56,834 nucleotides of DNA from the NCBI GenBank assembly GCA_903895995.1, contig CAITVX010000028.1, positions 1-56,834 on the forward strand. The letters run 5' to 3'. The stretch's first letter is position 1. Every line of letters begins with the position of its first letter. Origin of the DNA: an uncultured Actinomycetes bacterium (GTDB taxonomy: Bacteria > Actinomycetota > Actinomycetes > Nanopelagicales > Nanopelagicaceae). Below the pieces are notes generated by a model. It did not search any database, had not been told where the DNA came from, and was given only the letters and a program-made list of their open reading frames with translations. Below, piece after piece: positions 1,611 to 50,222 of the stretch. Position numbers and translations under genes: made by a program.

Positions 1611-1630
1611 GAGCCATAGAATTGGAATCT

Positions 1631-7497: not shown

Positions 7498-7499
7498 CG

Positions 7500-8438
7500 T
7501 TAGTCCAATGTGACGTAGTTAGGGCCCGCATAGTGGCCATCCCGGATCTTCATTCTTTGGAGCAGTAAATCATTAAGAAGCGCGCTTGCACCGATTCTAA
7601 AGAGTTGTGGGTTGAGCCATTCTGGGCCAGCAGTCTCGTTCACAAGAACAAGCTGCTTGATGGCATCTTTTGTATTACGGATTCCACCCGCTGGCTTTAC
7701 GCCAATCTTCTTGCCGGTCATCGCGTAATAGTCACGAACAGCCTCAAGCATGATGAGTACGACTGGGGCTGTGGCTGCTGGGGTTACTTTTCCAGTGCTT
7801 GTCTTGATGAAATCAGCGCCTGCCGCCATCGCCAAGAATGAAGCTTTGCGGACATTGTCATAAGTAACGAGCTCGCCAGTTTCAAGAATCACTTTTAAAT
7901 GAGCTTTATCGCCACAAATGCCTTTAATAAATTCAATTTCACTAAATACCTTTGCAAGGTTTCCTGAGAGAAAAGCGCCGCGGTCAATAACCATATCAAT
8001 CTCTTGGGCACCGCTTGCGATGGCATCCTCTGTATCGCGCTGCTTTACATCCAACGATGCGCGGCCAGAAGGAAAAGCTGTCGATACGGCAGCTACAGGA
8101 ATATCGTGGCCACCACTTGCATCAAGTTGATCACGAGCAATCTTTACCATGTCGTTGTAAACACAGATTGCGCCAACATGAGGAACCGTTGGATCACTCG
8201 GGTCAGGGCGAACTGCTTTTGTGCAAATCGCTCGAACTTTACCCGGAGTATCGGCGCCTTCAAGAGTTGTTAAGTCAATCATCGAGATAGCGATATCAAT
8301 CGCCCAGACTTTACTTGAGGTCTTTATGCTTCTAGTCGCCAACATCGCAGCTCTTGCATCCGCACCAACTTGGTCGACGGGAGAAAGGGTTCGTAAGAAA
8401 CTTTTTATCGAACTCTCTGAACCGTCGGTCAAGATCAT
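7500..8438 (-). CDS. deoC: Deoxyribose-phosphate aldolase
   Basis: Splits 2-deoxyribose 5-phosphate into glyceraldehyde 3-phosphate and acetaldehyde. The 312-residue class I aldolase (longer eukaryote/actinobacterial type) has the Schiff-base lysine K212 in ADFIKTSTGK, the second active-site lysine K248 in GVKPAGG, and D148 in QEIDMVID. ATG 8438 is preceded by TAGGAT at -12 to -7; this can be read as a -10 box for a leaderless message or, less well, as a poor Shine-Dalgarno. It heads a three-gene unit with the two ALDH genes and is divergent from nucleoside hydrolase 2. It links deoxynucleoside breakdown to glycolysis. Confidence 0.94.
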   Translation of the reverse strand: MILTDGSESSIKSFLRTLSPVDQVGADARAAMLATRSIKTSSKVWAIDIAISMIDLTTLEGADTPGKVRAICTKAVRPDPSDPTVPHVGAICVYNDMVKIARDQLDASGGHDIPVAAVSTAFPSGRASLDVKQRDTEDAIASGAQEIDMVIDRGAFLSGNLAKVFSEIEFIKGICGDKAHLKVILETGELVTYDNVRKASFLAMAAGADFIKTSTGKVTPAATAPVVLIMLEAVRDYYAMTGKKIGVKPAGGIRNTKDAIKQLVLVNETAGPEWLNPQLFRIGASALLNDLLLQRMKIRDGHYAGPNYVTLD

Positions 8439-8444
8439 GTTGTT

Positions 8445-8450
8445 ATCCTA
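8445..8450 (-). promoter_or_regulatory. Candidate leaderless -10 element of deoC
   Basis: TAGGAT on the minus strand occupies -12 to -7 relative to the deoC ATG, so transcription would start at or beside the start codon. No convincing -35 hexamer was found at 16-18 bases. The call rests on the same spacing recurring at other operon heads in the window. Confidence 0.45.
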
Positions 8451-8487
8451 TCTTGCCGATACCTGGCCATGTAAGAGGATTTAGATA

Positions 8488-8493
8488 TACCCT
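8488..8493 (+). promoter_or_regulatory. Candidate leaderless -10 element of nucleoside hydrolase 2
   Basis: TACCCT at -13 to -8 before ATG 8501, with no Shine-Dalgarno upstream of the start. It lies in the 62-base divergent gap shared with deoC, so the two promoters may be co-regulated. Confidence 0.4.
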
Positions 8494-8500
8494 TACGACT

Positions 8501-9439
8501 ATGAAAAAGACTCCCGTAGTTCTTGATTGCGACCCTGGCCACGATGATGCAATGGCGATGATCCTCGCCGCTTATAACCCACATATCGAATTACTAGGGA
8601 TAACGACTGTTTCAGGCAATGGCATTATTGATAAGGTCACTGAAAATGCGCTGCGGATATGTGCCCTCGCAAATATTCGCGTTCCTGTTGCCCAGGGGGC
8701 TGGAACAGCGATTTTAGGCTCAGTAGAAGCAGCCACAGATATTCATGGCGAGACCGCACTCGATGGAGCTCCACTTCCTGCACCTATATTTGAACTCGAG
8801 AAGATCGGTGGCGTTGAACTGATCGCAAAGCTTGTAAAAGAGCATCCTGAAAAAGTTACCTTGGTTGCAACAGGGCCACTGACAAATATTGCGCTCTTCT
8901 TAAAGATGTATCCAGAGCTAAAGAGCAAAGTTGCGCATATCGTCTTTATGGGAGGCAGCGCTTCTCGTGGAAACAGAACTCCTTATGCCGAGTTTAATAT
9001 TTGGATGGATCCTGAGGCTGCTGATGTAGTTCTTAAATCAGAACTTCCTCTCACAATGTGCGGGCTCGATGTGACTCACCAAGCACTCGTTACCAAAGAG
9101 GTCTTCGCTCGTTTAGAAAAGATGGGGACCGAGCTCTCCAAAACTGTCACTGGCCTTCTAACATTCTTTGCAAAAACTTACGATGAAGTATTTGAAATGC
9201 CCGAGCCACCTCTTCATGATCCTGTCGCGATCGCTGTTCTTATCGATGCTTCAGTCACAAAGAATCGTTTTGTGAATGTTGAGATCGAACTCAATGGCAC
9301 ATACACGCGTGGAGCGACCGTGGTTGATACCTACAATCGCAGTGGCGGAAAACCAAATGTCACGGTCGCCCTAGATCTTGATGCGCCAAAGTTCTGGAAC
9401 ATGATGCTTGAAGCGGTAGAGAAAGCTGGAGTTAGTTAA
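8501..9439 (+). CDS. Inosine/uridine-preferring nucleoside hydrolase (copy 2)
   Basis: A 312-residue IUNH-family hydrolase. The calcium-site motif is DCDPGHDDAMA (D9, D11, D15, D16), followed by ATGPLTNIALFL and HIVFMGGSA. The frame is open further upstream to 8354, but that extension runs antisense inside deoC. ATG 8501 puts the family's N-terminal VVLDCDPG strand in its usual place. It is a single-gene unit, divergent from deoC, and its 3' end overlaps the converging uridine phosphorylase by 8 bases. Base specificity is not readable from the sequence. Confidence 0.93.
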   Translation: MKKTPVVLDCDPGHDDAMAMILAAYNPHIELLGITTVSGNGIIDKVTENALRICALANIRVPVAQGAGTAILGSVEAATDIHGETALDGAPLPAPIFELEKIGGVELIAKLVKEHPEKVTLVATGPLTNIALFLKMYPELKSKVAHIVFMGGSASRGNRTPYAEFNIWMDPEAADVVLKSELPLTMCGLDVTHQALVTKEVFARLEKMGTELSKTVTGLLTFFAKTYDEVFEMPEPPLHDPVAIAVLIDASVTKNRFVNVEIELNGTYTRGATVVDTYNRSGGKPNVTVALDLDAPKFWNMMLEAVEKAGVS

Positions 9440-10187
9440 CAGCTCTTCCATTAGCTTTATCTTCAGCAATAATCTCTCGTAGGCCCTGCACTGCTGTCTC
9501 CAGCAAGATATCTAGTGGAGGCATTGGCTCGGTCGCATGGACCATCATGATTCCTGCTGCGCGTACGCAAAGCATGGAAGCGATAACAAAAATCGCTGAG
9601 GCTTCCATCTCAGAACAGAGCGCCCCGCCTATCTCCCAGGCCTTCCAGCGATTTAAGAGGTTCGCAGCTACGCCCATTCTCTCTGGCTCATGCTGGCCAT
9701 AGAAAGAATCCTTCGACTGAGAAATACCGGTTCGGTGTCTGGCACCTGTCTTCTTAGCGGCCTTCTGTAGAGCAAGTACTAGATCAATATCGGCGATAGC
9801 TGGAAATTCAATAGGCATGTAGTGAAGTGAGGTACCTTCATCACGAATTGCCGCAGAGATGATTGCAAGATCCCCTGACTTGATATCTTTCTGGATATGC
9901 CCGGATGTACCAACACGAATAAATGTATCTGCACCAACCATGACCAACTCTTCAAGAGCGATTGCAGCTGATGGGCATCCGATTCCTGTCGATGTAACAG
10001 AGACTTTTACTCCATCTAAATAACCGGTATATGTCGTGTACTCGCGATTTGAAGCAACGAGACGTGGCTCATCGAATAAGCGTGAGATTGGTTCGCATCG
10101 ACCAGGATCGCCGGGTAAGAGAACATACTTTCCAACATCGCCCTTTTCTAATTGGACGTGATATTGCTTTCCGTTATCTCCTTGCAT
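9432..10187 (-). CDS. udp: Uridine phosphorylase (copy 2)
   Basis: Phosphorolysis of uridine/deoxyuridine to uracil and (deoxy)ribose 1-phosphate. The 251-residue protein belongs to the NP-I family: VLLPGDPGRC phosphate-binding loop, GCPSAAIALEEL, TFIRVGTSG and the EMEASAIF ribose-binding Glu/Met segment. Three start features bear on the call. AGGAG directly abuts an ATG at 10193, while the ATG at 10187 sits 6 bases from it, so 10187 is preferred. The start overlaps the end of the upstream paralogue by 14 bases. This is the last gene of the ten-gene nucleoside operon. The C-terminal region (MMVHATEPMPP) differs from the paralogue. Confidence 0.92.
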   Translation of the reverse strand: MQGDNGKQYHVQLEKGDVGKYVLLPGDPGRCEPISRLFDEPRLVASNREYTTYTGYLDGVKVSVTSTGIGCPSAAIALEELVMVGADTFIRVGTSGHIQKDIKSGDLAIISAAIRDEGTSLHYMPIEFPAIADIDLVLALQKAAKKTGARHRTGISQSKDSFYGQHEPERMGVAANLLNRWKAWEIGGALCSEMEASAIFVIASMLCVRAAGIMMVHATEPMPPLDILLETAVQGLREIIAEDKANGRAVN

Positions 10188-10911
10188 CTGCATCTCCTTT
10201 GATCAGCTCACGAACTCCCAGAATAGCAGTTTCGATAAGTGGTTCCAATGATCCAAATTCGCCTTCTCCATGCATCGCCATGATGCCACCTGCTCGCACT
10301 TTTAACATTGACGCAATAATAAATATCGCAGATGCTTCCATCTCAGAACAGATCGCCCCGCCGATTTCCCAGGCTCTCCAACGATCGAGAAGTTTCTCTG
10401 AAACGGCAGAACGCTCAGGTTCAACTTCGCCGTAGAAAGAATCTTTTGATTGCGTAATACCAACGCGATATCGGACTCCCTTTATCTGGGCAGCACGGCG
10501 CAGCGCAGTCACAATCTCTAGATCTGCAATCGCTGGAAATTCCATCGGCATGTAATGCGAAGATGTTCCCTCATCGCGAATAGCGGCAGAGACAATCGCC
10601 AGATCCCCTGATTTCGTGCCTGGCTGGATACCCCCAGATGTCCCAACGCGGATAAAGGTATCTGCGCCTACGCGGGCTAGCTCCTCAACGGCAATCGCTG
10701 CGGATGGGCAACCGATGCCAGTTGACGTTACTGAGACCTTAACGCCATCTAAATATCCCGTATAAGTAACATATTCACGATTCGTTGCCACATGCACTGC
10801 ATTATCCAGATGCTTAGCAATGACTTCGCATCTGCCTGGGTCACCAGGCAGAAGTACGTAGCGTCCTACATCTCCTTTTTCTAATTGGATGTGGTGTTGT
10901 TTAGCACTCAT
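10174..10911 (-). CDS. udp: Uridine phosphorylase (copy 1)
   Basis: A 245-residue NP-I family nucleoside phosphorylase and tandem paralogue of the next gene downstream. It has the same GDPGRC phosphate loop, GCPSAAIAVEEL, FIRVGTSGG and SEMEASAIF motifs. The two proteins are visibly similar along most of their length, which implies an old tandem duplication. Differences cluster around RLFDEPRLVAS versus KHLDNAVHVAT and at the C-terminus (MAMHGEGEFGS here), so substrate range may differ. The ATG at 10911 overlaps the TGA of nucleoside hydrolase 3 as ATGA. Confidence 0.92.
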   Translation of the reverse strand: MSAKQHHIQLEKGDVGRYVLLPGDPGRCEVIAKHLDNAVHVATNREYVTYTGYLDGVKVSVTSTGIGCPSAAIAVEELARVGADTFIRVGTSGGIQPGTKSGDLAIVSAAIRDEGTSSHYMPMEFPAIADLEIVTALRRAAQIKGVRYRVGITQSKDSFYGEVEPERSAVSEKLLDRWRAWEIGGAICSEMEASAIFIIASMLKVRAGGIMAMHGEGEFGSLEPLIETAILGVRELIKGDADARR

Positions 10912-11837
10912 AGTGACTTCATCCGCTCTATAAAGAAATCCATAAAACCGGGCACATCAACTTCCATCGCGACCTTGGCATTCGGCTGCTTATTTAAGGT
11001 CTTAAAGTGGTCTGCAGATGTCTTCGCCCTCGTGTGCTCTCCTTTGAGTTCTACTGTGACGTAGTAATCTCGAAGTGATACGAGCTCGGGTTTCACCAAT
11101 ATTGCTGCAGCAAGAGGATCGTTAATTGCACATCCATCAATGGCTTGATACTCATCATGGAACTCCATATAGAAGCGAGTTGAATCTTCAATAAATTCCC
11201 TAATCGAAGGCTTAACTTCTTTGAGACGCGTGAGGTGTTCCTTGGTGAAAATGCATTGGTAGGTAACATCTAGGGGGACGATTGTTAAATCAAAACCAGC
11301 GCGCACAACTATGTCAAAGGCCTCTGGGTCACAGAAGACGTTATATTCAGAGTCTGGTGTGGAGTTGCCTGGGAAGTGAAAGGTTCCTCCCATGGATACA
11401 ACGTTCTTTACTAAGGGAACAATCGATGGATCCTTCAAAATTGCCAGAGCAATATTGGTCATTGGACCGATACAGAGCAGCGTGATCTCCTTCGGGTATT
11501 TATGGATGAGCTCAATAATCAGATCCACAGCCTTGGGTTCAACAATCTGAACCTTTGATGCAGGCAGAACTGCATAGCCCAAGCCACCATCGCCATGAGT
11601 CTCCTCTGCGACACTGAGGGCTTTCACAAGCGGTTGGTCCGCTCCACGTGCAACAGGTACATGAGAAATACCAGCTAATTCAACGAGTTTTAAGGCATTC
11701 TCAGTGCACTTATCAACACTCGTATTTCCGTGTGTCACAGTGATTGCTTCAAGTGAGATCTCAGGCGATGCAGCAAGAAGCAGAAATGCTAATGCGTCAT
11801 CAATACCAGGATCAGTATCAAGAATAATTCTCTGCAT
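10908..11837 (-). CDS. Inosine/uridine-preferring nucleoside hydrolase (copy 3)
   Basis: A 309-residue IUNH-family hydrolase. It has LDTDPGIDDALA (D7, D9, D13, D14), ITVTHGNTSVDKC, CIGPMTNIALAI and VSMGGTF. It starts at ATG 11837, sharing a base with the stop of the MFS gene (TAATG), and ends overlapping the uridine phosphorylase by 4 bases. It sits in the same operon as the ABC importer, so it acts on imported nucleosides. Pairing with two phosphorylases gives the operon both hydrolytic and phosphorolytic routes. Confidence 0.93.
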   Translation of the reverse strand: MQRIILDTDPGIDDALAFLLLAASPEISLEAITVTHGNTSVDKCTENALKLVELAGISHVPVARGADQPLVKALSVAEETHGDGGLGYAVLPASKVQIVEPKAVDLIIELIHKYPKEITLLCIGPMTNIALAILKDPSIVPLVKNVVSMGGTFHFPGNSTPDSEYNVFCDPEAFDIVVRAGFDLTIVPLDVTYQCIFTKEHLTRLKEVKPSIREFIEDSTRFYMEFHDEYQAIDGCAINDPLAAAILVKPELVSLRDYYVTVELKGEHTRAKTSADHFKTLNKQPNAKVAMEVDVPGFMDFFIERMKSL

Positions 11838-13012
11838 TATTGATTCTCCACAATCTTCCCACGAATGCCAATAGTAGATACCAAGAAGGCTAAGACGGTC
11901 GCTCCGAGCATAAACTCAAAACCACGCCATCCACCGACATGGGAGACAAAGACTCCGCTAACAGATGCCCCGATCGTGATGCCGAGTGAGATTGATGCAC
12001 CGAGGAGTGAGAAGGCCTCACTCAGGCGATGGACTGGAACAAGCTCCTTAAGCCGTGCATTTGCCGAGATCAAAGAAGGTGCAATCCCAAGTCCAGCAAT
12101 AATCAACCAGAAAATAATTGTGCTGTAGCTATGGAAGAGCACAAGCCCAGATGTACCAATACTCATGATTAACAGTGATGCCGTTAAGCGTTTTGCCGAG
12201 CTGATCTTCCAGTGAACAAATCCATATACAAGACCTACAACAGTGCTACCGATTGGATTGAGCCCAACCCAGAGCCCACCCTCTGCTGCTCTATTACCCT
12301 CTTTTGCAACAGCAAGGATCACAACATATTGGGCACCAAAGGTCATTCCAACGCAGACAAGGGTTGCAAGAAGTGATTTAACATAAGGAATCTTAAGCAA
12401 TCCACCATGTTTCTCAACTGGTTGAGGATGGCCACCATGATCAATGCTTGTGAAAGCCAGACCAAACCCAGCAAGAAGAAGGAAGGCAAGCCCGCTATAA
12501 AGTGGATAGTGAGAGCCCTTCCAAGAGAATAAAAATCCTGCGAGTGCAGGTCCCACAACAAATGCAACCTCATCCAAGACCGACTCTAGAGAGAGCGCCG
12601 CACCTAAAATCCGATCATCTGTGAGAGATCTACTCCACCTCGCACGGGTGTAGCTTCCAAATTGTGGGAAAGTCGAGCCGGCTAAGGCACAGGCAATAAG
12701 CAATGGGATTGTCTGCTTTTCAAAGTAAAGAATGGAGAGGATTGCGATCGTATTGAGGATGATGACTGGAACAAGAACCTTTCGGGTTCCCTTAACATCA
12801 ACGAGACGGCCGATCCGAGGGCCCATAAATGCACCAGATAAGGTGTAGCACGCTGATGCAACTCCAGCGAGAGCAAAGGAATTTCGGGTTGAGGAAATTA
12901 AGAAGACGAGAGCAACGGTATTCATTGCCATCGGTAGGCGACCGATAATCCCATAACCAAATGTGGAGAGAGATTTATCGTGCTTTATTACAGCTTTATA
13001 GGCACTCAGCAT
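11837..13012 (-). CDS. MFS transporter
   Basis: A 391-residue major facilitator superfamily protein with about 12 hydrophobic segments. The loop-2/3 region GPRIGRLVDVKGTRKV resembles the MFS motif GxxxDRxGRR. Substrate cannot be deduced from sequence. Its position inside the nucleoside operon, between a deoxyribosyltransferase-family gene and a nucleoside hydrolase, suggests export or import of bases, nucleosides or sugar products. It is separated from the upstream gene by 12 bases, and no clear Shine-Dalgarno is visible. The stop overlaps the next start as TAATG. Confidence 0.85.
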   Translation of the reverse strand: MLSAYKAVIKHDKSLSTFGYGIIGRLPMAMNTVALVFLISSTRNSFALAGVASACYTLSGAFMGPRIGRLVDVKGTRKVLVPVIILNTIAILSILYFEKQTIPLLIACALAGSTFPQFGSYTRARWSRSLTDDRILGAALSLESVLDEVAFVVGPALAGFLFSWKGSHYPLYSGLAFLLLAGFGLAFTSIDHGGHPQPVEKHGGLLKIPYVKSLLATLVCVGMTFGAQYVVILAVAKEGNRAAEGGLWVGLNPIGSTVVGLVYGFVHWKISSAKRLTASLLIMSIGTSGLVLFHSYSTIIFWLIIAGLGIAPSLISANARLKELVPVHRLSEAFSLLGASISLGITIGASVSGVFVSHVGGWRGFEFMLGATVLAFLVSTIGIRGKIVENQ

Positions 13013-13024
13013 TCAATAGTTGAT

Positions 13025-13474
13025 CTACTTCTCATCATGCCACTGCTTGAGAATGGTAAATGCTGCATCAAAGTTATCTACGACTGCTCCGGCATCTTCA
13101 ACACATCCACGGACAAAGAGATTGATTCCTTTTCCGTCGATCATATTTCGATCACGAATAACTCGTGTATCAGTCACAAGACCAACAATGCCTTTCTTTG
13201 ATTTATCGTGGCGCATCTCATTCCAAAAGATTCCAATCTCATTAGCTGTTCCATCATCGACCATAGGGCCATCTAGGAGAGCTAATACAGCATCAGCGCC
13301 AAGAACCGCTTTTGAATCCACATCAAAGATAAATTCTGGTGTTACTGGATCTGGAAGAGGAATCTCATGAGGTACGAAGACTTCCATCCCAGCATCACGC
13401 AACCTTTTGGCGCAAGTATCGATAAAAGTTCGCTCATACGGTGTAAAGAGTGGTCCAGCAAAGTAGATCTTCAT
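13025..13474 (-). CDS. Nucleoside 2-deoxyribosyltransferase-family protein
   Basis: A 149-residue protein of the nucleoside 2-deoxyribosyltransferase / DNPH1 (Rcl) superfamily. It has IYFAGPLFTPYER at the N-terminus, and LLDGPMVDDGTANEIG at 67-81 with the candidate nucleophile E79. Members either swap bases between deoxynucleosides or hydrolyse deoxynucleotides. The sequence does not decide which. ATG 13474 is chosen because it overlaps the upstream stop (TAATG) and begins exactly at the conserved MKIYFAGP strand; the longer reading to 13534 would run deep into the upstream gene. Confidence 0.85.
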   Translation of the reverse strand: MKIYFAGPLFTPYERTFIDTCAKRLRDAGMEVFVPHEIPLPDPVTPEFIFDVDSKAVLGADAVLALLDGPMVDDGTANEIGIFWNEMRHDKSKKGIVGLVTDTRVIRDRNMIDGKGINLFVRGCVEDAGAVVDNFDAAFTILKQWHDEK

Positions 13475-14469
13475 TAGTACATAACCGTTCTTGTTAGATG
13501 GTGCGGCCAATGGGTCGCGTGGTATGACTTCCAAAAACGAAAATCAACTTGTGGCATTAATAAGGTATCCATACCTTTACGACGATCATTAATCTCATCG
13601 GTAAGACGCGCAATCGCATAGATAGAGCTCGCTCGGATCTCGATCTCTGCCATCGAATCGCGAGGCACTTCGACGAGAGAGTTGATCTGACGCTCTAGCT
13701 CAGGGGCATACTCAAAGATTCCAGTCACACGCATCCCGACAGGCACGATGTAATCAGCGAAAGCAGTCAACATATCTGCATCTTCCAGTGCCCAGGCCTT
13801 TCTCGGCATGAGAGCGAGGTGCATCCCCCAAATACCAAGTTGCGCCAATTTATAGATCTGAATTTCAGATCCTTTGTAAGGTGAGACATCTTTGAATCGT
13901 GGGAACTCAGCAGTCAATCTTTCGAGGATTCCATTCCCATCTGCATAGAGCTTAGGAGAACAATCCCTCACAAAGTTATGAAAGTGGCCGTCATAATTCT
14001 CAACGAGAACTCGTCCAACTTCATTAAAGATCGTCACTCGCTCATCCAGCATTGGCATCTCGATAGTTCCAGAAAAGACACCCTGAAGATCCTTTTTCGT
14101 AACAGATGCAAGGTAGTCCCCTGTAAAGAATGGAACTCCTTCTGCAACAGCCTTATGAAGGTTAGCCATCATTGCTTCGCTATCGCTAAAACGTCTGCCC
14201 TTGTAATCGGTCTCGTATTTCACGCCTGTATCAAAATTTGTGAAGGCAAAGTTTGATGTATTGACAGTGAGAGTGAGATCCATCAAGAAGTCAGCATCGT
14301 TGCCGAAATCAAAGAGGGATGAGCCATCTGGCTTTGAGAACTCTTCGTAAGCCATCCAATCAGCAACTTCACTGATCTTTGCCTCATTGATCTTCACTAA
14401 TGAGGCTTGTTTTATTACCGGGTCAAGGCTCTGTAGGACTCCAGAAGACCAGATATGTGAACCAGGCAC
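13474..14469 (-). CDS. Queuosine salvage protein, DUF2419 / Qng1-like N-glycosylase
   Basis: A 331-residue protein recognised as the queuosine-salvage family (DUF2419, PF10343). The landmarks are in the C-terminal half: LTAFADYIVP, an EIEIRASSIYAIARL helix and the terminal VDFRFW. The known family member Qng1 releases queuine from queuosine 5'-phosphate. Here it starts at GTG 14469, sharing a base with the permease TAG, and is coupled to the deoxyribosyltransferase-family gene downstream. Placement directly after a nucleoside importer suggests that imported queuosine, or another deazapurine or modified nucleoside, is the source. The assignment is from memory of the motifs, not a search. No tgt was seen in the window. 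Confidence 0.75.
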   Translation of the reverse strand: MPGSHIWSSGVLQSLDPVIKQASLVKINEAKISEVADWMAYEEFSKPDGSSLFDFGNDADFLMDLTLTVNTSNFAFTNFDTGVKYETDYKGRRFSDSEAMMANLHKAVAEGVPFFTGDYLASVTKKDLQGVFSGTIEMPMLDERVTIFNEVGRVLVENYDGHFHNFVRDCSPKLYADGNGILERLTAEFPRFKDVSPYKGSEIQIYKLAQLGIWGMHLALMPRKAWALEDADMLTAFADYIVPVGMRVTGIFEYAPELERQINSLVEVPRDSMAEIEIRASSIYAIARLTDEINDRRKGMDTLLMPQVDFRFWKSYHATHWPHHLTRTVMY

Positions 14470-15707
14470 TAGCTCGATTCCTCGCCCTTCCTATACGGCG
14501 CACCAGCCATAGCTGGTGGACGTAGCCTCTGCGAGAGGAATGCGAGTACAAGAATTGTCGTCAAGTTAGGGAAGAAGGTAACGAACTCATCAGGCACAAC
14601 TTTGTTGATCAAGTAGTACGCGAGCACTACTCCACCAATCACAACTCCGATGATAAAGCCCTTCCAATCCTTCTTGCGAAGTTTCGAAACTCCATAGGCA
14701 AGTGCGAGTGTGATCACCACGAGAAGCAGTGCGTGCACCGAGGTTGATTGGCGAACACGTAGCGCATCGGTAAGACCAAAGAGAACTGAGCCAGCAAGTA
14801 CACCGGCTGGTGTCCAGTTACCGAAGATCACTGCAGCAAGACCGATGTAACCGCGACCAGCAGTCTGGCCCTCAAGGTAATTACCGGTAGAGATAACAGA
14901 GATGTAAGCCCCACCGAGCCCAGCGAGAGCTCCAGAGACTGCCAAGGCGATATATCGGGTGCGGTAAACATTTACACCCAGAGATTCAGCTGCAACAGGA
15001 TTCTCCCCGCAAAAGCGCATCCGCAATCCAAAACGAGTCTTCCATAAGATCCAGGCAGTTAATGGAAGGGCAAGAATGAGAACGAGTGATGCCCAGTTGA
15101 TCTTGGTAATGAACCCCGCACACACTCCAGCAACATCGGAGATAACAAGGATGTGCTTGCTACCGATTTCTGTAAGGAATGGGCTTAAACCAGGAACGGT
15201 AAATGTCCCAATGCTATTTACCTGAGGTGAGATATTTATATCTCCACCTTTACCGAGGAAGAAGACTCCAGAGAGAAAACGCGCAGTTCCCATACCTAGT
15301 AAGTTAATTGCAAGACCTGAGACAGCTTGATCGATTCCAATACGTACGGTAAGAATTGCATGGAGAATTCCTGCAAGGGCGCCACCAATAGCGCCAGCGA
15401 AGATACCTACCCACGGCCCATAGAGAAAACCAAACCATGCACCAAACCAGGTGCCAAGAATCATCATTCCTTCAAGACCAATATTGATTACGCCAGAACG
15501 TTCAGCCCAGAGACCGCCAAGTCCAGCCATCAAAATTGGGATGGTAAATCGAATTGTTGCGCCAGCGGCACCTGGTGAAGTGATGTCACTAATTCCGGTG
15601 TACTGACGGACGAGAGAGATCATGATGATGACCGCTCCAACAGTAAGCATCATCCGCGATGGCGATGTGATGATCTTCCAGAGGCGGTTAGCTAGAGAAT
15701 TCTTCAT
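14469..15707 (-). CDS. ABC transporter permease, nucleoside/simple-sugar type (second permease)
   Basis: A 412-residue permease of the BPD_transp_2 family (NupQ/YufQ type). It is rich in hydrophobic segments, with the typical RSGVINIGLEGMMILG and GALAGLGGAYISV motifs. The C-terminus adds further membrane segments (RKKDWKGFIIGVVIGGVVLAYYL). With the permease upstream it forms the channel of a BMP-dependent nucleoside importer. The start overlaps the upstream permease stop by 4 bases. The stop TAG shares a base with the GTG of the queuosine-salvage gene. Confidence 0.92.
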   Translation of the reverse strand: MKNSLANRLWKIITSPSRMMLTVGAVIIMISLVRQYTGISDITSPGAAGATIRFTIPILMAGLGGLWAERSGVINIGLEGMMILGTWFGAWFGFLYGPWVGIFAGAIGGALAGILHAILTVRIGIDQAVSGLAINLLGMGTARFLSGVFFLGKGGDINISPQVNSIGTFTVPGLSPFLTEIGSKHILVISDVAGVCAGFITKINWASLVLILALPLTAWILWKTRFGLRMRFCGENPVAAESLGVNVYRTRYIALAVSGALAGLGGAYISVISTGNYLEGQTAGRGYIGLAAVIFGNWTPAGVLAGSVLFGLTDALRVRQSTSVHALLLVVITLALAYGVSKLRKKDWKGFIIGVVIGGVVLAYYLINKVVPDEFVTFFPNLTTILVLAFLSQRLRPPAMAGAPYRKGEESS

Positions 15708-16807
15708 GACTTCACTCCCTTCGCGACTGCATCAACTCGTGGGGCTTCTGCAGCTCCTACAAGTCGTTGCTGTTGACGTCGAGTAATTCGTTTAACAATT
15801 TCGTATGAAGTAACTGTCGCCAAGATGACCGTTCCTTGCATCATCATCACGATCTCTTTTGGTACTCCATTGAGATCGAGAGCGGGGGCTGCCTGCTCTA
15901 AGAATGCCCAGAAGAATGCGGCGATTGCGATACCTACCGGATTACTGCGACCAAGCAGCGCCAAAGCCAAACCTGTCAGCGCATATCCCGTTGGGAATGC
16001 AAGGCTATAGGTGTGGGTGTGGCTTAAGAGCTCGCCCATTCCAGTTAAGCCGGCAATTGCGCCAGAGAGAGCCATCGTAATAAAGACCATACGTGGAGCA
16101 TTTACTCCGCTGGCCCGCGCTGCCCTAAAGGACATTCCTGTTGCGCGAAGGTTGAAGCCGAAGACACTCTTATTAAGAACAACCCAGTAGAGAACACCTA
16201 CGGCTATTGCAACAAAGGCGAAGCTATAGAGCTCGCCACCCATGATGTGGAAGCTTGGCATCCATCCTGATTTAGGAATCATCGGAGTTGCTAAGTTGTC
16301 TGAGAGGCCACCCTTGAGCCCAAGTCGACCAGGCTGAAGCAAGTAGATAATTAGACCTGAAGCGATTGTATTCAACATAATATTACTAATAACTTCAGAG
16401 ATGTTGCGCTTCACTTTAAGGTAGCCGGCAATAGATGCCCAAAGGGCACCAACGACGACGCCAGTGATAACAATCAGCGGAACTTCAAGAAATGCAGGAA
16501 GGTTCGTCGCGCCACCTACAACTGCCGCTATAAATACAGCGAGGCGGTATTGGCCGTCGATACCGATGTTGAAGAGGAGCATTCGGAAACCGATTGCAGC
16601 TGCAACCCCAGCTAGGTAATAAGCAACTGTCTGATTAAGTTCGGCGACAAGGTTCTCTGGTTGGCTACCATAGCTGGCAATAAGTTGGAAGGTTGAGAGT
16701 GGGCTAGCACCCTTCATCAAGAGAATGATGGATACAAAAATTAATGTGAAAACTACTGCGGCGATTGGAGCAGCGAGAGCCCAGAAGAACCTATTGAGTC
16801 TTTTCAT
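15704..16807 (-). CDS. ABC transporter permease, nucleoside/simple-sugar type (first permease)
   Basis: A 367-residue permease of the NupP/YufP type. It has a short cytoplasmic N-terminus followed by about eight to ten membrane segments. Characteristic stretches are FNIGIDGQYRLAVF, ISEVISNIMLN and GLTGMGELL. It overlaps the ATPase gene by 4 bases and the second permease by 4 bases, so stoichiometric synthesis of the transporter is likely. Partner substrate-binding protein: BMP protein at 18427-19497. Confidence 0.92.
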   Translation of the reverse strand: MKRLNRFFWALAAPIAAVVFTLIFVSIILLMKGASPLSTFQLIASYGSQPENLVAELNQTVAYYLAGVAAAIGFRMLLFNIGIDGQYRLAVFIAAVVGGATNLPAFLEVPLIVITGVVVGALWASIAGYLKVKRNISEVISNIMLNTIASGLIIYLLQPGRLGLKGGLSDNLATPMIPKSGWMPSFHIMGGELYSFAFVAIAVGVLYWVVLNKSVFGFNLRATGMSFRAARASGVNAPRMVFITMALSGAIAGLTGMGELLSHTHTYSLAFPTGYALTGLALALLGRSNPVGIAIAAFFWAFLEQAAPALDLNGVPKEIVMMMQGTVILATVTSYEIVKRITRRQQQRLVGAAEAPRVDAVAKGVKS

Positions 16808-18318
16808 GCGATCTTCTCTCCAGTCATGGCCAATCCGAGTTGCTCGGGTGTTGTTTTGCGAGGATCGAGATAATCCACAATTGTTCCTCTGAATATCACC
16901 GCTATCCGATCAGAGAGCTGAAAGAGCTCATCTAAATCAGCAGAGACCAAGAGAACTCCTGTGCCCTTGAGTCTTGCCTCGATGAGGTGATCCCAAATAA
17001 TTGCCTGTGCTCCAACGTCGACTCCACGAGTTGGTTGAGCAGCAATTAACATCTTTGGATCGCCAGACATTTCACGTCCAACGATAAATTTCTGCTGATT
17101 TCCACCTGATAGCGCATTCGCCAACACTGTATTACTTGGCGTACGAACATCGAACTCTTCAATGATGCGCTCTGAATCTGCCTTCGCTGCACCCTTATCG
17201 ATCCAGACCCCATTAGACATTGGCTTAGTTTGCTGATGGCCCAAGATTCGGTTCTCCCAGAGGGTTGCGGCCATCATTAATCCATCGCGCTGTCTATCTT
17301 GAGGAATATAACCAACACCGTGATCGCGAATCTCGCGAAGAGTGGAATCTTGCGTATTGAGTCCAACGGTAACCACAGATCCAGAATCTGGCTTCACGAG
17401 GCCCATGATCAACTCAATGAGTTCCGATTGGCCATTTCCCTCAACGCCAGCCAGACCAAGGATCTCGCCCGCGTGGATCTCTAAATTAATACTGTGAAGG
17501 ATTTCACGGCCCGTGCGATCGTTAGCGCTGGCGTTAGTGACAACCAGAACCTTCTCTTCACGAGGTTTCGTGGTTGCAGGTCGCGGTGATGGTAACTCGC
17601 CACCGATCATATATTCAGCGAGTTCTTTCTTGTTGGTCTTTGCAGGAACCAAGTTAGCAACAGTAGTCCCGTGGCGCATCACAGTGATGCTATCTGCGAT
17701 CGCCATCACCTCATCGAGTTTGTGTGAGATGAAGATAATCGTGAGTCCGTTTTGAGTTAAGCCCTTTAAATTCTTAAAGAGATCATCAACCTCTTGTGGC
17801 ACGAGTACTGCAGTTGGTTCATCAAGGATGAGAATCTTTGCTCCACGGAAGAGGACCTTTGCAATTTCTACACGTTGGCGTACGCCGACTCCAAGGTCAG
17901 CTACTAAATCATCGGGACTAATATCAAGTCCATATGTCTTGATGATTGACTGTAGGTGCTCACGCGCTTTGGCATAGTCCACGACGACCTTTGCCTTCAT
18001 TGGCTCGCTGCCGAGCACAATATTTTCTAGGACAGTTGCATTATCAGCCAACATAAAGTGTTGGTGCACCATACCGATGCCAAGTCCGATGGCATCTTGT
18101 GGAGATTTAATTGTTGCAGGGCTTTCAAAGATTGCGATTGTGCCAGCATCTGGCTTTACCATGCCGTAGAGAATCTTCATCAACGTCGATTTACCTGCAC
18201 CATTTTCGCCGATGATGGCGTGAATATTGCCCTTGGCGATAGTTATGTCTACATCATGGTTTGCAACTACTCCAGGATAATTCTTCTCAATTCCCTTTAA
18301 TTCGATTGCAACGCTCAC
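16804..18318 (-). CDS. ABC transporter ATP-binding protein with two nucleotide-binding domains
   Basis: A 504-residue tandem ATPase of the nucleoside/sugar importer family (NupO/YufO, RbsA-like). Domain 1 has Walker A GENGAGKST near residues 37-45, signature LGVGVRQRVEIAK and Walker B ILILDEPTAVL. Domain 2 has a degenerate Walker A (GVEGNGQSE), signature LSGGNQQK and a modified Walker B (MLIAAQPTRGVD). This degeneracy of the second site is normal for the family. It is 108 bases downstream of the binding-protein gene, with a hairpin in between, and overlaps the first permease by 4 bases. Confidence 0.94.
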   Translation of the reverse strand: MSVAIELKGIEKNYPGVVANHDVDITIAKGNIHAIIGENGAGKSTLMKILYGMVKPDAGTIAIFESPATIKSPQDAIGLGIGMVHQHFMLADNATVLENIVLGSEPMKAKVVVDYAKAREHLQSIIKTYGLDISPDDLVADLGVGVRQRVEIAKVLFRGAKILILDEPTAVLVPQEVDDLFKNLKGLTQNGLTIIFISHKLDEVMAIADSITVMRHGTTVANLVPAKTNKKELAEYMIGGELPSPRPATTKPREEKVLVVTNASANDRTGREILHSINLEIHAGEILGLAGVEGNGQSELIELIMGLVKPDSGSVVTVGLNTQDSTLREIRDHGVGYIPQDRQRDGLMMAATLWENRILGHQQTKPMSNGVWIDKGAAKADSERIIEEFDVRTPSNTVLANALSGGNQQKFIVGREMSGDPKMLIAAQPTRGVDVGAQAIIWDHLIEARLKGTGVLLVSADLDELFQLSDRIAVIFRGTIVDYLDPRKTTPEQLGLAMTGEKIA

Positions 18319-18365
18319 AGATTAGATACCTTTCAGCTTTTCACGACAGTGGGAAAATCTAAATA

Positions 18366-18402
18366 GTGATGGTTGCCAAGCGTATTGCCTGACAACCATC
18401 AC
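18366..18402 (-). terminator. Perfect 10-bp stem-loop between binding protein and ABC ATPase genes
   Basis: GTGATGGTTG (18366-18375) and its exact reverse complement CAACCATCAC (18393-18402) enclose a 17-base loop. On the transcribed minus strand the hairpin is followed by a weak, interrupted T-rich stretch (TATTTAGATTTT). It is probably a leaky terminator or a 3'-end stabiliser that raises binding-protein mRNA above that of the membrane components. Confidence 0.6.
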
Positions 18403-18426
18403 AATTTTAAAGCAGTTCCTTAAGGA

Positions 18427-19497
18427 TTAACCTTGTGGAAGTTTTACCTTTGATGGATCTGTTGGTACGACAATTGCGCCTGATGCAAGTGAATACTTGA
18501 TTGTATTTAACTTGGCAATGATCGCAGCTGAGAGGTGATTTCCAGTGGTTGTGAAACCAACTCCGCCGTTAGATGCATCGAAGAAGTGAGCGCCTGCTGT
18601 GAACTTATTCGCAACAACATCACTCAAGAATGAAGCTACGCCGACATCGACGTTCTTCAGCGCTGAAGTCAAGATTGCTGACTTGTACTTCGCATTTGAA
18701 GCATAAAGAGCTTCGTCAGCATCTACACCGATTGACCAGTGACCCTTGCCGAGTTCAAATGCTGCCTTGTGTGCACCTTGTCCAGTTGAACCAGCTGCTG
18801 AGTAAACAACATCTGCACCATTCTGGTACATACCTAGTGCTGATTCGTGGCCCTTATCTGGAGCGTTGAATCCGCTGAAATCAGGTGGGTTAGATGCATA
18901 CGCTGATTGATACTTAATAGTTGGATCAACCTTGGCAACACCAGCCTTGAATCCTGCTTCGAAAGCCTGGATCAAAGGAATGTTTACGCCACCGATGAAG
19001 CCGACGCTCTTAGTCTTTGTTGTAAGAGCTGCTGCCATACCTACGAGGTATGAACCTTCTTCAGCATGGAAGAGGAGGCCTTCAACGTTTGCTGCGCCAT
19101 CGATATTGTCGTCAACGATCGAGAACTTGACGTTAGGGTTCTTTGCAGCAACCTCTTTGAGGGCATTCTCGTATGAGTAGCCAACAACAACGATTGGGTT
19201 AGCGCCAGCTGAGATGAGAAGCTGCAAGCGCTGAGCGCGTGATGCATCTGTATCAGCAGCATTTCCCTGGAGATCCTTCTCGGACCAGCCTGGGTGAGTC
19301 TTTAAGAAAGTTTTGAAACCAATGTAAGCCAATTGGTTAAAGCCTGGTTGTTCTTTTCCACCCAAGTCAAAAGCGATACCAACTAATTTCTTAGGGGCCG
19401 CTGTTGCTTGAGATGAAACTGCTACTACGGAGAGAGTAAGGCTTGCGGCAGCGATGCTCGCAACCATGCCTAATCTTCCGAGATGTTTTCTCTGCAT
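18427..19497 (-). CDS. BMP-family nucleoside-binding protein of the ABC importer
   Basis: A 356-residue periplasmic-binding-like protein of the BMP/PnrA family. Matching features are VGIAFDLGGKEQPGFNQ at the start of the mature part, VVVGYSYENAL, HAEEGSYLVGM and VGFIGGVNIPLIQAFEAGF. The N-terminus is a Sec signal peptide (basic MQRKHLGR, hydrophobic core to about residue 28, ATAA/PKK cleavage-like site). There is no lipobox Cys, unlike most monoderm binding proteins. The start has AAGGAG 9 bases upstream; the same bases also spell GAGAAT at -12 to -7, so leaderless initiation is possible but less likely. It is first gene of the ten-gene operon. Confidence 0.92.
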   Translation of the reverse strand: MQRKHLGRLGMVASIAAASLTLSVVAVSSQATAAPKKLVGIAFDLGGKEQPGFNQLAYIGFKTFLKTHPGWSEKDLQGNAADTDASRAQRLQLLISAGANPIVVVGYSYENALKEVAAKNPNVKFSIVDDNIDGAANVEGLLFHAEEGSYLVGMAAALTTKTKSVGFIGGVNIPLIQAFEAGFKAGVAKVDPTIKYQSAYASNPPDFSGFNAPDKGHESALGMYQNGADVVYSAAGSTGQGAHKAAFELGKGHWSIGVDADEALYASNAKYKSAILTSALKNVDVGVASFLSDVVANKFTAGAHFFDASNGGVGFTTTGNHLSAAIIAKLNTIKYSLASGAIVVPTDPSKVKLPQG

Positions 19498-19539
19498 GCT
19501 TTTATTCTCCTTAAGGGTAGAAAATATCGTCGGGGGGAA

Positions 19540-19655: not shown

Positions 19656-20588
19656 ATGAGCAATCTTGAGAGCGCCCACATTGTTGTAGTTGGTAGCACC
19701 ATGATCGACATGCTGACTTATTCGAAAAAAATTCCAGGGTCAGGCGAAACTGTGATTGGTGATAATTTCATCACAGGCTTCGGCGGCAAGGGTGCAAACC
19801 AAGCGACAATGGCTCGCCGTTTCGGCGTCAATGTCTCGATGGTCAACACACTTGGTGACGACGTATTCGGAGAGAGTACCCTCGCTAATTTCAAAGCACA
19901 AGGATTTAATACTGATTTCGTAAGGCGAGCACCAGGCGCTAGCGGCGTAGCTCCGATCTGGGTCGAACCTGATGGAACGAACCGAATTATCTGTGTTCCG
20001 GGTGCAAATAATGCGATGACCGAAGAGCAGTCTCAATCTGCCATTGAGACTTTGCCACATATCTCTGTGGTTATCGGTCAGTTAGAGATCCCGCAAAATG
20101 TTACAGCGGCGGCATTTAGAACTGCGCGATCGATGGGTATCCGAACCATTCTCAACCCTGCTCCATTTGCTCCCATCTCCAAAGAGCTTCTCGAAGTAAG
20201 TGATTGGATCATTCCTAACGAGACAGAGTTTGCATCGATGCACCCTGCAGGGCTATCCCCGACTAGTGATGAGATTATCCAAGAGTTTGCGCAATCTCTT
20301 AACTGCCGCTTTGCCGTCACTCTTGGTCAAGCTGGTGCAGCTTTTACAACTCTTGATAACCAGGTCATCCGAGTATCAGCGCCATCTGTCAAAGCGATCG
20401 ATACCACTGGTGCAGGAGATGCCTTTGTAGGTGCATTCTCCGTTGGGCTCGCACTTGGTCTCGATGATGCGACAGCTGTCCGGTTAGGCACCGAATGTGC
20501 ATCCGATAGCGTCACCAGGCTTGGCACTCAATCCTCGTACCCATCGATCGAGCAAGCAAAGGCACTGCTGGCGCGGGTAGAGCGCTAA
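19656..20588 (+). CDS. rbsK: Ribokinase
   Basis: Phosphorylates D-ribose at C5. The 310-residue PfkB-family protein has the N-terminal VVGSTMIDML strand, the GFGGKGANQATMA substrate-binding motif typical of ribokinases, and the C-terminal DTTGAGDAFVGAF signature (D249-D255, catalytic D255). Ribose freed by the nucleoside hydrolases is the likely substrate, which explains its place beside the nucleoside importer. It is divergent from that importer operon. Start ATG 19656 follows a -10-like hexamer without a usable ribosome-binding site. Confidence 0.92.
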   Translation: MSNLESAHIVVVGSTMIDMLTYSKKIPGSGETVIGDNFITGFGGKGANQATMARRFGVNVSMVNTLGDDVFGESTLANFKAQGFNTDFVRRAPGASGVAPIWVEPDGTNRIICVPGANNAMTEEQSQSAIETLPHISVVIGQLEIPQNVTAAAFRTARSMGIRTILNPAPFAPISKELLEVSDWIIPNETEFASMHPAGLSPTSDEIIQEFAQSLNCRFAVTLGQAGAAFTTLDNQVIRVSAPSVKAIDTTGAGDAFVGAFSVGLALGLDDATAVRLGTECASDSVTRLGTQSSYPSIEQAKALLARVER

Positions 20589-20596
20589 TAGAAAGG

Positions 20597-20602
20597 TAGA
20601 GT
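20597..20602 (+). promoter_or_regulatory. Candidate leaderless -10 element of yajQ
   Basis: TAGAGT lies at -12 to -7 before ATG 20609, inside the 20-base gap after ribokinase. A separate leaderless transcript for yajQ is therefore possible, although read-through from rbsK is equally plausible. Confidence 0.35.
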
Positions 20603-20608
20603 AGAGAA

Positions 20609-21100
20609 ATGGCAACAGATTCCAGTTTTGATATCGTCTCCAAAATCGATGAGATGGAAGTTGATAACGCCTTCAACCAAGCCGAGCGTGAGATCGATAC
20701 GCGCTTTGATTTTAAGAACACAGGTGCAAAGCTTGAGAAGAGCACCGGCAAGATCAATATTGAGGCAGATACCGAAGAGAAGGCGAAAGCCGTTCTTGAA
20801 GTTCTCAAGGATAAATTTGTTAAGCGTGGAGTCTCACTCAAGCACCTCGATGCGGGCAAGCCAGAGTTAAGCGGCAAGATCTACAAGATTGCCTGCACAC
20901 TCAAAGAAGGCATCTCGACTGAGAATGCGAAGAAGATTGCAAAGCTGCTCCGTGATGAAGGACCAAAGGGTTTGAAGACTCAGATTCAAGGTGATGAACT
21001 TCGCGTCACGAGTAAGAGCCGCGATGATCTCCAAACTGCAATCGCCATGGTGAAGGATCACCCGTGGGAGTTCGCAGTTCAATTTACAAATTACCGATAA
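20609..21100 (+). CDS. yajQ: YajQ family nucleotide-binding protein
   Basis: A 163-residue YajQ/DUF520 protein with the diagnostic start FDIVSKIDEMEVDNAFNQA, ERDIDTRFDFK-like segment and LRVTSKSRDDLQ near the C-terminus. Homologues bind cyclic di-GMP or nucleotides in some proteobacteria; that function is unproven in actinobacteria. The length is standard for the family. It is followed without a gap by the RarD-type transporter gene. The neighbouring nucleoside genes do not clarify its role. Confidence 0.93.
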   Translation: MATDSSFDIVSKIDEMEVDNAFNQAEREIDTRFDFKNTGAKLEKSTGKINIEADTEEKAKAVLEVLKDKFVKRGVSLKHLDAGKPELSGKIYKIACTLKEGISTENAKKIAKLLRDEGPKGLKTQIQGDELRVTSKSRDDLQTAIAMVKDHPWEFAVQFTNYR

Positions 21101-22000
21101 GTGAAGAGCTACAAACTAGGCCTTCTCTTCGGAGTTGGCGCATATGCCATTTGGGGCCTATTCCCCCTGTATTGGCCCCTTCTTGAACCATCAGGATCAA
21201 TCGAGATCGTTGCAAACCGCTCGGTCTGGACGCTCTTCTTCTGCATCATTGCGCTCTCTTTCTCCCACCAAATAAGGGTGACATTTCAGCTCATGCGTAG
21301 CTGGAATATGTTCTTCAAATTAACTCTCACTTCGATTCTTATCTCGATCAATTGGATCGTCTATATCTGGGGCGTCAATAACAACCATGTAGTCGAGTGC
21401 GCACTTGGTTATTACATTAACCCGCTTATCATCATCGCTTTCGGAGTTCTCTTGCTGAAAGAGAAGATGCGCAGGTTGCAGTGGATCTCTGTTGGTATCG
21501 CCGCGGTAGGCGTTATCGTCCTAACAATTGATTATGGTCGCCCACCTTGGATTGCTCTTACTCTTGCGTTCTCTTGGGGAAGTTACGGAGTCATCAAGAA
21601 ACAACTTGGCATACCAGCGCTGCAAGGTTTAACCATTGAGACCCTCATATCACTCCCCTTCTATGGCGGATACATGATCTATCTAGGAACGCATGGAGAA
21701 TCCCACTTTGGTCAAAAGGCTGGCCTTACAGTCCTTCTAGTGAGCGCAGGAATTGTTACTGCAATTCCACTATTAATGTTTAATGGATCAGGAAATCGAC
21801 TCCCATTTACCATTATTGGACTCTTGCAATACATCACTCCAACACTTCAGTTCATTATCGGAGTTTCAATCCGCCACGAGAAGATGTCTGTTGGAAGTTG
21901 GATTGGATTCTTTATTATTTGGGGCGCTTTATTTGCTCTTGGTTTAGATCTCGTCAAATCAAATAATCAAAGAGAGAATATTGTGAATGCGCAAGCATAA
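21101..22000 (+). CDS. rarD: RarD-type EamA (DMT) transporter
   Basis: A 299-residue drug/metabolite-transporter protein with about ten hydrophobic segments. The N-terminal GVGAYAIWGLFPLYWPLL and VVECALGYYINPL segments are characteristic of the RarD subfamily. Substrate is unknown. It starts at GTG 21101 immediately after the yajQ stop and overlaps nucleoside hydrolase 4 by 14 bases at its 3' end, so these three genes probably form one unit. Confidence 0.9.
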   Translation: MKSYKLGLLFGVGAYAIWGLFPLYWPLLEPSGSIEIVANRSVWTLFFCIIALSFSHQIRVTFQLMRSWNMFFKLTLTSILISINWIVYIWGVNNNHVVECALGYYINPLIIIAFGVLLLKEKMRRLQWISVGIAAVGVIVLTIDYGRPPWIALTLAFSWGSYGVIKKQLGIPALQGLTIETLISLPFYGGYMIYLGTHGESHFGQKAGLTVLLVSAGIVTAIPLLMFNGSGNRLPFTIIGLLQYITPTLQFIIGVSIRHEKMSVGSWIGFFIIWGALFALGLDLVKSNNQRENIVNAQA

Positions 22001-22868
22001 GATAGTTCTCGATACTGATATAGGCACTGATGTTGATGATGCAATGGCCCTCGCACTCTTGCTAGGTAGGGCAGATGTAGAAATTCTTGGCATTACTACT
22101 GTGTACGGTGATACGAAGTTACGCTCACAGATTGCAGCCCGTTATGCAAGGCTTATGGGAGCCAAGCTTAAGATTCACGCCGGTAGTGAGCAAACCTTAT
22201 CTGGCCGCCCAGTATGGGTATCTGGACTTGAAGGCTCTCTTCTTGCAAACCTCGCAGATGAGAACTTCGAAGAATTTAATGGGGTTAATTTTTTAAGAGA
22301 TGCCGTATCTAAAAATCCTGGTGAGATCGATGTGGTTGCAATTGGCCCACTCACAAATATTGCGAGAGTGATTGAGTCAGATCCAAGCTTCGCTAAGAAT
22401 GTAAAACATTTATGGATAATGGGAGGGGAATTTGCTACAGAGTTTGCTGAGCATAATTTCCGCTGCGATGTTCGAGCCACAAAGATTGTTATGGACTCTG
22501 GCATCAACATGACGATTACCGGAGTTGAAATAACTAAACAGTTACAAATAATGCGAAGTGATCTCGAAGTGATCTCTCAGGCTGGGTCGATGGGTTCTTT
22601 GCTCTTTGCTGAAATTGATCAATGGCTTACCTATCGAAAAGAAGATTTTGATGTCCCTCATGATCCCATCGCAATTTTGCCCATGCTAGAACCTGAACTA
22701 TTCACATTCTCAGAAGCTGGAATAGTCGAGATAGAGATCTCAGATTCAGAGATGACCGGAAAGAGCAGATTCTCAGAGCAAAGCACTGGAAATATAAGAA
22801 TCGTTCGTGATTTTAATCGAGTAAAAGTTCAAGCAGAGATTTTGGCTTCAATCCTTCGAGCTGGATAG
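21987..22868 (+). CDS. Nucleoside hydrolase-family protein (copy 4, divergent)
   Basis: A 293-residue IUNH-fold protein. The calcium-site motif is DTDIGTDVDDA (D9, D11, D15, D17, D18), a longer DxGxDxDD variant than the DPGxDD of the other copies. It also has VAIGPLTNIARV and HLWIMGGEF. The C-terminal half is clearly different from copies 1-3, so it may hydrolyse another N-riboside. ATG 21987 lies within the end of the rarD-like gene. Its stop is one base from the end of the converging polyprenyl synthase gene. Confidence 0.88.
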   Translation: MRKHKIVLDTDIGTDVDDAMALALLLGRADVEILGITTVYGDTKLRSQIAARYARLMGAKLKIHAGSEQTLSGRPVWVSGLEGSLLANLADENFEEFNGVNFLRDAVSKNPGEIDVVAIGPLTNIARVIESDPSFAKNVKHLWIMGGEFATEFAEHNFRCDVRATKIVMDSGINMTITGVEITKQLQIMRSDLEVISQAGSMGSLLFAEIDQWLTYRKEDFDVPHDPIAILPMLEPELFTFSEAGIVEIEISDSEMTGKSRFSEQSTGNIRIVRDFNRVKVQAEILASILRAG

Positions 22869-48934: not shown

Positions 48935-49666
48935 TTAGACCACCGGAATAAATCCCGAGATCAAATCTCGTAGAGAGTTCATCACTGTGAGCCAGAGCCC
49001 TGTGACTTGCAAGATTCCAATAAGGATTAAGAATCCCCCACCAATCTTCGTCATGAGATCCCCATGTTTAGATATCGATCTGCGTAACTTTGCAGATTGA
49101 TCGAAGAAGATTCCGACAAGGACAAGTGGCAATCCAAGTCCGAAGCAGTACGAGAGGCTCAGCAGTGCGCCGCGTGTGGCACTTGATGATTCAAGTGAGA
49201 GTGCTTGCACAGCGCCAAGTGTTGGTCCGATACAAGGAGTCCAGCCAAGCCCAAAGAGAAAACCAAGGAGCGGTGCCCCAACAAGGCCGGCGCTTGATTT
49301 CCAGGTTGGCTTAAATGAACGATAGAACTTTTGATTGAAGAGAAAGATCACTCCCATAAGGATCGTTAAAACCCCGAGCAAGATTGTGAGCCAATGTGAA
49401 CTGTCATTGATCTTTGAACCGAGCGTTCCAAATAGCGCGCCGTAGGAGATGAAGAGCGCAGAGAATCCGCAGACAAAGAGGATCGAACCAAGCGCGACGC
49501 GGCCCTTGCTTTTCACATCGGTCATTCCCGCTGCATAAGAGAGATAACCCGGAACTAATGGGAGTACGCACGGTGAGAAGAATGAAATTAACCCGGCTAT
49601 AAAGGCAACGATAAATGCGAGTAGGAGATTTCCATTCAAGACTTGATGAGTGAAGAAGTTATGCAT
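48935..49666 (-). CDS. ccdA: Thiol-disulfide transporter CcdA
   Basis: Six-helix membrane protein, 243 residues, carrying reducing equivalents across the membrane for apocytochrome c reduction. The two redox cysteines are C33 in [16 protein letters not shown] and C145 in [13 protein letters not shown]. It overlaps the tlpA stop region by 8 bases and abuts resB. The partner is the thioredoxin-like lipoprotein encoded just upstream. Confidence 0.95.
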
Positions 49667-50222
49667 GGGATGGCTCCGCTACTACTTTTTTGATCATGGA
49701 GTCGAGCAGGGCGAAGGTGACCTCGCCGCTAATACGAACAGCTACGCGATTATTTGCATCAATAATAAGCGTGGTTGGTATCGCATTAGGGAGCAATGAG
49801 CCTCTAAATCCAGCTAAAAGTGAGTCATCTGTGAAATTTGGATACGGAATCTTGAAGCGATTCACAAAGGCAGATGCGGATGAGAGATTATCGCGAGTCA
49901 ATATTCCTACAAATTGAACGTGGCCTGCAAGACGTGTTGCAAAATCTGCAAGTAATGGGGCTTCGGCTCGGCATGGTGAGCACCACGATGCCCAGACATT
50001 GACGACGATTACTTGATTCTTCGCAATCTTGATCGACGTTCCTGAAAGAGTTGGGCCCATGAGATCAGGTGCAATCTTTCTTTCAGCTGGCTTGATATAG
50101 ACAGCCACACCACTTCCTGAAACAAATGCATTTTCATTTGCTTTGGAGATACCGCCACTTGAGCAACTCGTAAGAGCGCCGATAGAGAGCATCACTACAG
50201 CAAGCGCAGTCAGTCTCTTCAT
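49659..50222 (-). CDS. Thioredoxin-like lipoprotein, TlpA/ResA type
   Basis: Extracytoplasmic membrane-anchored disulfide reductase, 187 residues. A lipobox LTSC puts the lipidated Cys at 20. The redox site is [13 protein letters not shown] with C81 and C84. [14 protein letters not shown] contains the cis-Pro loop. It most likely reduces the CxxCH motif of apocytochrome c using electrons from CcdA. Overlaps the upstream histidine phosphatase gene by 4 bases. Confidence 0.93.

Follow-up and report, generated by a model that had tools for sequence, protein, structure and literature searches.

The window, meaning the whole stretch of 56,834 nucleotides analysed here, carries on its minus strand a gene for a substrate-binding protein together with the other components of an ABC importer, one ATPase and two permeases (14469-19497), which is the operon arrangement of the Bmp/PnrA family. 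The features referred to below are the following, with the basis of each assignment in brackets.

19507..19511, minus strand: Shine-Dalgarno-like AGGAG, 9 bases 5' of the ATG at 19497 (sequence)
18427..19497, minus strand: Bmp/PnrA-type substrate-binding protein, 356 aa, 0 Cys (ORF, Pfam and PDB matches)
19399..19497, minus strand: predicted signal peptide of this protein, residues 1-33, SPase I site ATA/APKK, without lipobox (read from the sequence, with the A-x-A of the clade)
16804..18318, minus strand: ATPase of the ABC importer, double ABC_tran (Pfam)
15704..16807, minus strand: importer permease 1, BPD_transp_2 (Pfam)
14469..15707, minus strand: importer permease 2, BPD_transp_2 (Pfam)
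13474..14469, minus strand: queuosine salvage protein, PF10343, directly after permease 2 (Pfam, synteny)
49659..50222, minus strand: TlpA-type thioredoxin with a lipobox, an internal control for lipobox retention on another protein (sequence)
50163..50174, minus strand: lipobox LTSC, residues 17-20 of the TlpA-type protein (read from the sequence)

The binding protein belongs to the Bmp/PnrA family: its match to PF02608 (Bmp; E 9.6e-55, 186.1 bits against a cut-off of 24.1) covers profile positions 14-298 of 301 and so spans the domain, and besides it Pfam gives only a weak, overlapping Peripla_BP_4 match (E 0.001). By sequence, the protein shares family and fold with the PDB chains of TmpC (2fqw), Lbp (7x0r) and Basic membrane proteins A and D (E 1e-38 to 1e-23), and the importer is set up like those of the Bmp/PnrA nucleoside-binding lipoproteins. 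However, several of these chains are named lipoproteins, whereas the window protein has neither a lipobox nor any Cys. Its closest named relatives come from MAGs of actinobacteria, two of which carry the title Candidatus Nanopelagicaceae.

PnrA and BmpD bind nucleosides (PMC7093131, in its available part), and nucleosides are, by family, the predicted substrate of the window importer. The neighbourhood of nucleoside enzymes agrees with this prediction, and the NCBIfam model for B6 transporters scores only 68.1 against a cut-off of 400. Genes for nucleoside and deoxyribose salvage densely flank the importer on both sides (70-13534 and 19656-22868), among them hydrolases, phosphorylases, deaminases, a deoxyribosyltransferase, PfkB kinases and an aldolase, several of these names coming from reading the translations. 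Scans of the whole window for tRNAs and Rfam families gave no match. In loop 2 (alignment to PDB chain 7x0r), all 37 outgroup rows examined have an Asp that may be the counterpart of Asp27 of PnrA, a residue in contact with the base, against Gln or Val in all 13 proteins of the clade formed by the window protein and its 12 named relatives. In all seven acI-type loci that extend far enough, permease 2 is followed by the queuosine-salvage gene (PF10343); this is so in none of five outgroup loci, which have a cytidine deaminase there instead. The loop-2 change and this adjacency hint at a shifted substrate, and make the importer a candidate for the uptake of queuosine nucleoside, which we offer as a lead and not as a result.

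Export signal of the Bmp protein

An earlier note, made from the sequence of the window, had placed a Sec signal peptide ending near ATAA/PKK on the Bmp protein and had remarked on the lack of Cys in the signal region, and our analysis agrees with both. The predicted signal peptide reads MQRKHLGRLGMVASIAAASLTLSVVAVSSQATA, followed by APKK after the cleavage site. Judged by reading and a simple script, a positive n-region, a hydrophobic h-region and an A-x-A motif before the cleavage site are present in 13/13 proteins of the clade, as expected for Sec export and SPase I processing. There is no lipobox Cys ending the signal peptide, as a bacterial lipoprotein would have, and Cys is absent from the entire protein. 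Nor are there signs of anchoring by sortase or a wall domain: the protein has no LPXTG-like motif, and Pfam finds no wall-binding domain in it.

The note had also raised the possibility that another start might reveal a lipobox. The frame extends 14 codons from the upstream stop to the ATG, and this extension holds neither a start codon nor a Cys. Since there is no Cys in the protein either, no other start, whether upstream or downstream, can yield a lipobox, and a wrong start hiding one is ruled out.

Lipobox census across genomes and protein families

The host genome (G000) comprises 1.36 Mb in 39 contigs and is 99.94% complete (a computed figure); we assume from its group that the host is monoderm. 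A search with five Pfam families gave 16 binding proteins (Bmp 2, SBP_bac_1 6, Peripla_BP_6 2, Peripla_BP_4 2, SBP_bac_5 4), after leaving out two LacI-type regulators, recognised by reading their N-termini (L032, L033), and a second count of the window Bmp protein (L034). Each of the 16 carries a Sec-type signal peptide without a lipobox, which answers the earlier question of whether other binding proteins of the genome lack it too, and a search of these 16 for LPXTG-like motifs and for hydrophobic stretches at the C-terminal end found neither. Two of the SBP_bac_1 proteins (L024, L025) both have Cys 42 and Cys 58 between the signal peptide and the domain, in a short region without a significant Pfam match that may form a small disulfide module.

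Loss of the lipoprotein pathway does not account for this pattern and is ruled out as its cause: lgt and lspA are present in the genome, with one match each, as is SPase I, and the TlpA-type protein retains the lipobox that the earlier note had claimed for it, which reads LTSC at residues 17-20. TlpA homologues occur in 61/61 genomes sampled from the order, with a lipobox in all 30 loci read.

We compared Bmp proteins in a class sample of 118 genomes with 92 rows, 14 inside the order (two from the host genome, 12 from G001-G007) and 78 outside it, 76 after two were dropped as second gene pieces (G112:C80 and the second G131:C268 row). By our own rule, a lipobox is present in 76/76 rows outside the order and 0/14 inside. 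The named loci divide in the same way: 12/12 acI-type loci lack the lipobox and 7/7 outgroup loci have it (four named Blastococcus or Modestobacter, two Geodermatophilaceae MAGs and one other MAG). Our rule is relaxed; the strict consensus, [LVI][ASTVI][GAS]C, is matched by 26 of the 37 outside rows tested and by none of the 13 clade proteins. By eye, A-x-A is present in 24/26 in-order Bmp rows; the two exceptions, the second Bmp protein of the host genome (Bmp2) and a row from G007, carry different small residues there. The linker, measured between the cleavage site and the first of the conserved Bmp motifs, also differs, with a median of 10 residues in the order (range 7-11, measurable in 21 of 26) versus 30 outside it (range 9-67, measurable in 69 of 83).

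For Peripla_BP_6, we read 30 loci outside the order, a subset of a longer list: a lipobox is present in 26, and the other four show no export signal of any kind. In G001-G007, 15/16 lack the lipobox by our rule and one (L228, from G007) is ambiguous, with the Cys of LATC lying within the h-region and an AQA site following. In another family of the class (f5; assemblies of 1.0-1.7 Mb, 60-100% complete), there are 22 Peripla_BP_6 rows; the lipobox is present in all 14 of the loci that were read, and five of these 14 score below the family cut-off. A small genome by itself is thus no explanation, and genome reduction alone is insufficient as a cause.

The N-termini of SBP_bac_5 and SBP_bac_1 proteins were read within the order, where the 61 genomes sampled all share one family code (f1). 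These genomes gave 138 SBP_bac_5 rows, of which 129 were read and one was truncated; nine of the 128 readable proteins retain a lipobox and 119 lack it. The order is therefore not uniform. Our rule was overruled by eye for L060, L064 and L065, where the Cys comes after the A-x-A site, and for L187 and L191, which have no export signal; it was tightened after the first three, part of the rows having been scored before. The Cys of L253, two residues past ASA, is rejected as a lipobox both by our rule and by the published consensus.

Lipobox states on protein trees

We built a quick tree from 81 of 109 Bmp domains, with N-termini excluded and actinobacterial rows only. All 24 unlipidated rows belong to this lineage, and they fall in four groups among lipobox proteins. 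The lipobox state changes at least four times on this tree, three of the changes being forced by well-supported branches, versus 20.9 in shuffles; these counts carry no direction, and long-branch warnings touch two of the unlipidated rows (L119 and Bmp2). Because the outgroups are uniform, we infer that the direction was loss of the lipobox. On the SBP_bac_5 tree the nine lipobox proteins are scattered among those without, with eight changes, not fewer than in shuffles, and L068 of the host genome, which has no lipobox, is 0.25 changes per site from the lipobox protein L059. One ancestral change in a single gene is ruled out, for Bmp by the four tree groups and for SBP_bac_5 by the intermixed states.

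On the sequences compared, absence of the lipobox is a trait of the lineage, apparently reached more than once, which is beyond what the reading of a single sequence could show. Cys and tether have both disappeared, in these same organisms, from several lineages of proteins, which suggests a pressure at the level of the cell and not an accident in one gene.

Proposed retention of unanchored binding proteins and its meaning

We consider it probable (roughly 0.65) that the Bmp protein is a soluble, Sec-exported binding protein of a nucleoside-type importer, and that the lineage has in more than one step shed the lipid anchor from most of the binding proteins read, keeping the lipoprotein pathway for TlpA. 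The relatives of Bmp elsewhere in the class are lipoproteins, and the acI/Nanopelagicaceae-type lineage would have moved its binding proteins from a lipid-tethered to a soluble form, the anchor shed consisting of the lipobox Cys and a flexible linker. The soluble proteins would then presumably be retained in the inner wall zone, which in monoderm walls resembles a periplasm without being one (PMC5817068, available part). Cleavage, retention and benefit of the unanchored Bmp protein are what we infer, and cleavage is favoured by the conserved A-x-A and the presence of SPase I.

The same two features bear on the idea that the signal peptide is left uncleaved, so that its helix stays in the membrane and anchors the protein in place of the lipid. 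Something of this kind may be seen within the order: four SBP_bac_5 proteins (L086, L296, L303 and L308) have a strongly hydrophobic N-terminal helix with no clear A-x-A site, and three of the four are close to the lipobox protein L083 on the tree, so that a swap of helix for lipid seems to have occurred there. The signal helix of Bmp is itself not weakly hydrophobic, its best 19-residue mean being 2.11 versus a median of 2.0 for 75 in-order proteins. Hydropathy draws no clear line between cleaved and uncleaved helices: of the anchor-like proteins compared, L303 (2.42) and L308 (2.31) lie within the range of these 75 proteins (1.54-2.49) and only L296 (2.93) exceeds it, L086 having been left out. 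For Bmp, however, the A-x-A retained in 13/13 of the clade and in 24/26 in-order rows, in a genome that encodes SPase I, argues against a helix left in place, and we regard it as unlikely, though the most serious of the alternatives.

If the protein is instead cleaved and has no retention, it would be lost to the water or shared among cells. Neither lipobox nor LPXTG-like motif nor hydrophobic C-terminal stretch marks any of the 16 binding proteins of the host genome, as this would predict; yet on general reasoning such a loss would be costly for a planktonic oligotroph, and it would have been repeated in several families, which makes it improbable. Least credible of all is that the pattern is an artefact of a wrong start, against which stand the absence of an alternative start and of any Cys, or that the gene was acquired from a lineage with soluble binding proteins, such as a diderm. 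Diderms normally have soluble binding proteins, which would fit an acquisition; but on a tree of actinobacterial rows only, without diderm sources, the clade branches among lipobox proteins of actinobacteria, and the lipobox is likewise absent in other binding-protein families of the lineage.

Returning to the soluble, shed-anchor reading, it can be set against two known systems. The lipoprotein form is the norm for Gram-positive binding proteins (PMC7530257, available part); those of the host genome do the same job in ABC import, and the lipoprotein enzymes are present, but by sequence the binding proteins found are not lipoproteins. They resemble instead the soluble periplasmic binding proteins of diderm oligotrophs (PMC8168909, available part) in being unanchored, in their type I signal peptides and in a low-nutrient lifestyle, presumed for the host genome. 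There, however, an outer membrane closes the compartment, whereas here only a wall is assumed. In a model built for such diderms with a closed periplasm, abundant diffusing binding proteins lead to very low half-saturation constants and high affinity at the cost of slow growth (same source), and transcripts of acI binding proteins are reported to reach 1.7 to 411 times the median (PMC5574706, available part). We put forward tentatively, as somewhat less than an even chance, that acI-type monoderms have built a functional equivalent of the periplasm, with tethers stripped convergently, family by family, in favour of a freely diffusing pool behind the wall, like that of diderm oligotrophs behind the outer membrane.

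Our searches of the open-licence PMC literature turned up no report of lineage-wide delipidation of binding proteins, or of lipobox loss in them, for actinobacteria; a study of secreted proteomes pools signal peptides, and the word lipoprotein is absent from its main text as far as available (PMC11039613). The individual parts are known; what is new is their combination, in which an assumed monoderm keeps the pathway and yet has repeatedly untethered its binding proteins. Since cultured Nanopelagicales hosts exist (PMC10202952, available part), the idea of untethering is testable. Rules of protein localisation derived from Gram-positive bacteria may fail in the Nanopelagicaceae-type lineage. 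This lineage of freshwater plankton would also be a natural test of two ideas: that nothing more than a wall is needed to keep a pool of soluble binding proteins in place, and that oligotrophy is founded on binding proteins that are abundant and mobile.
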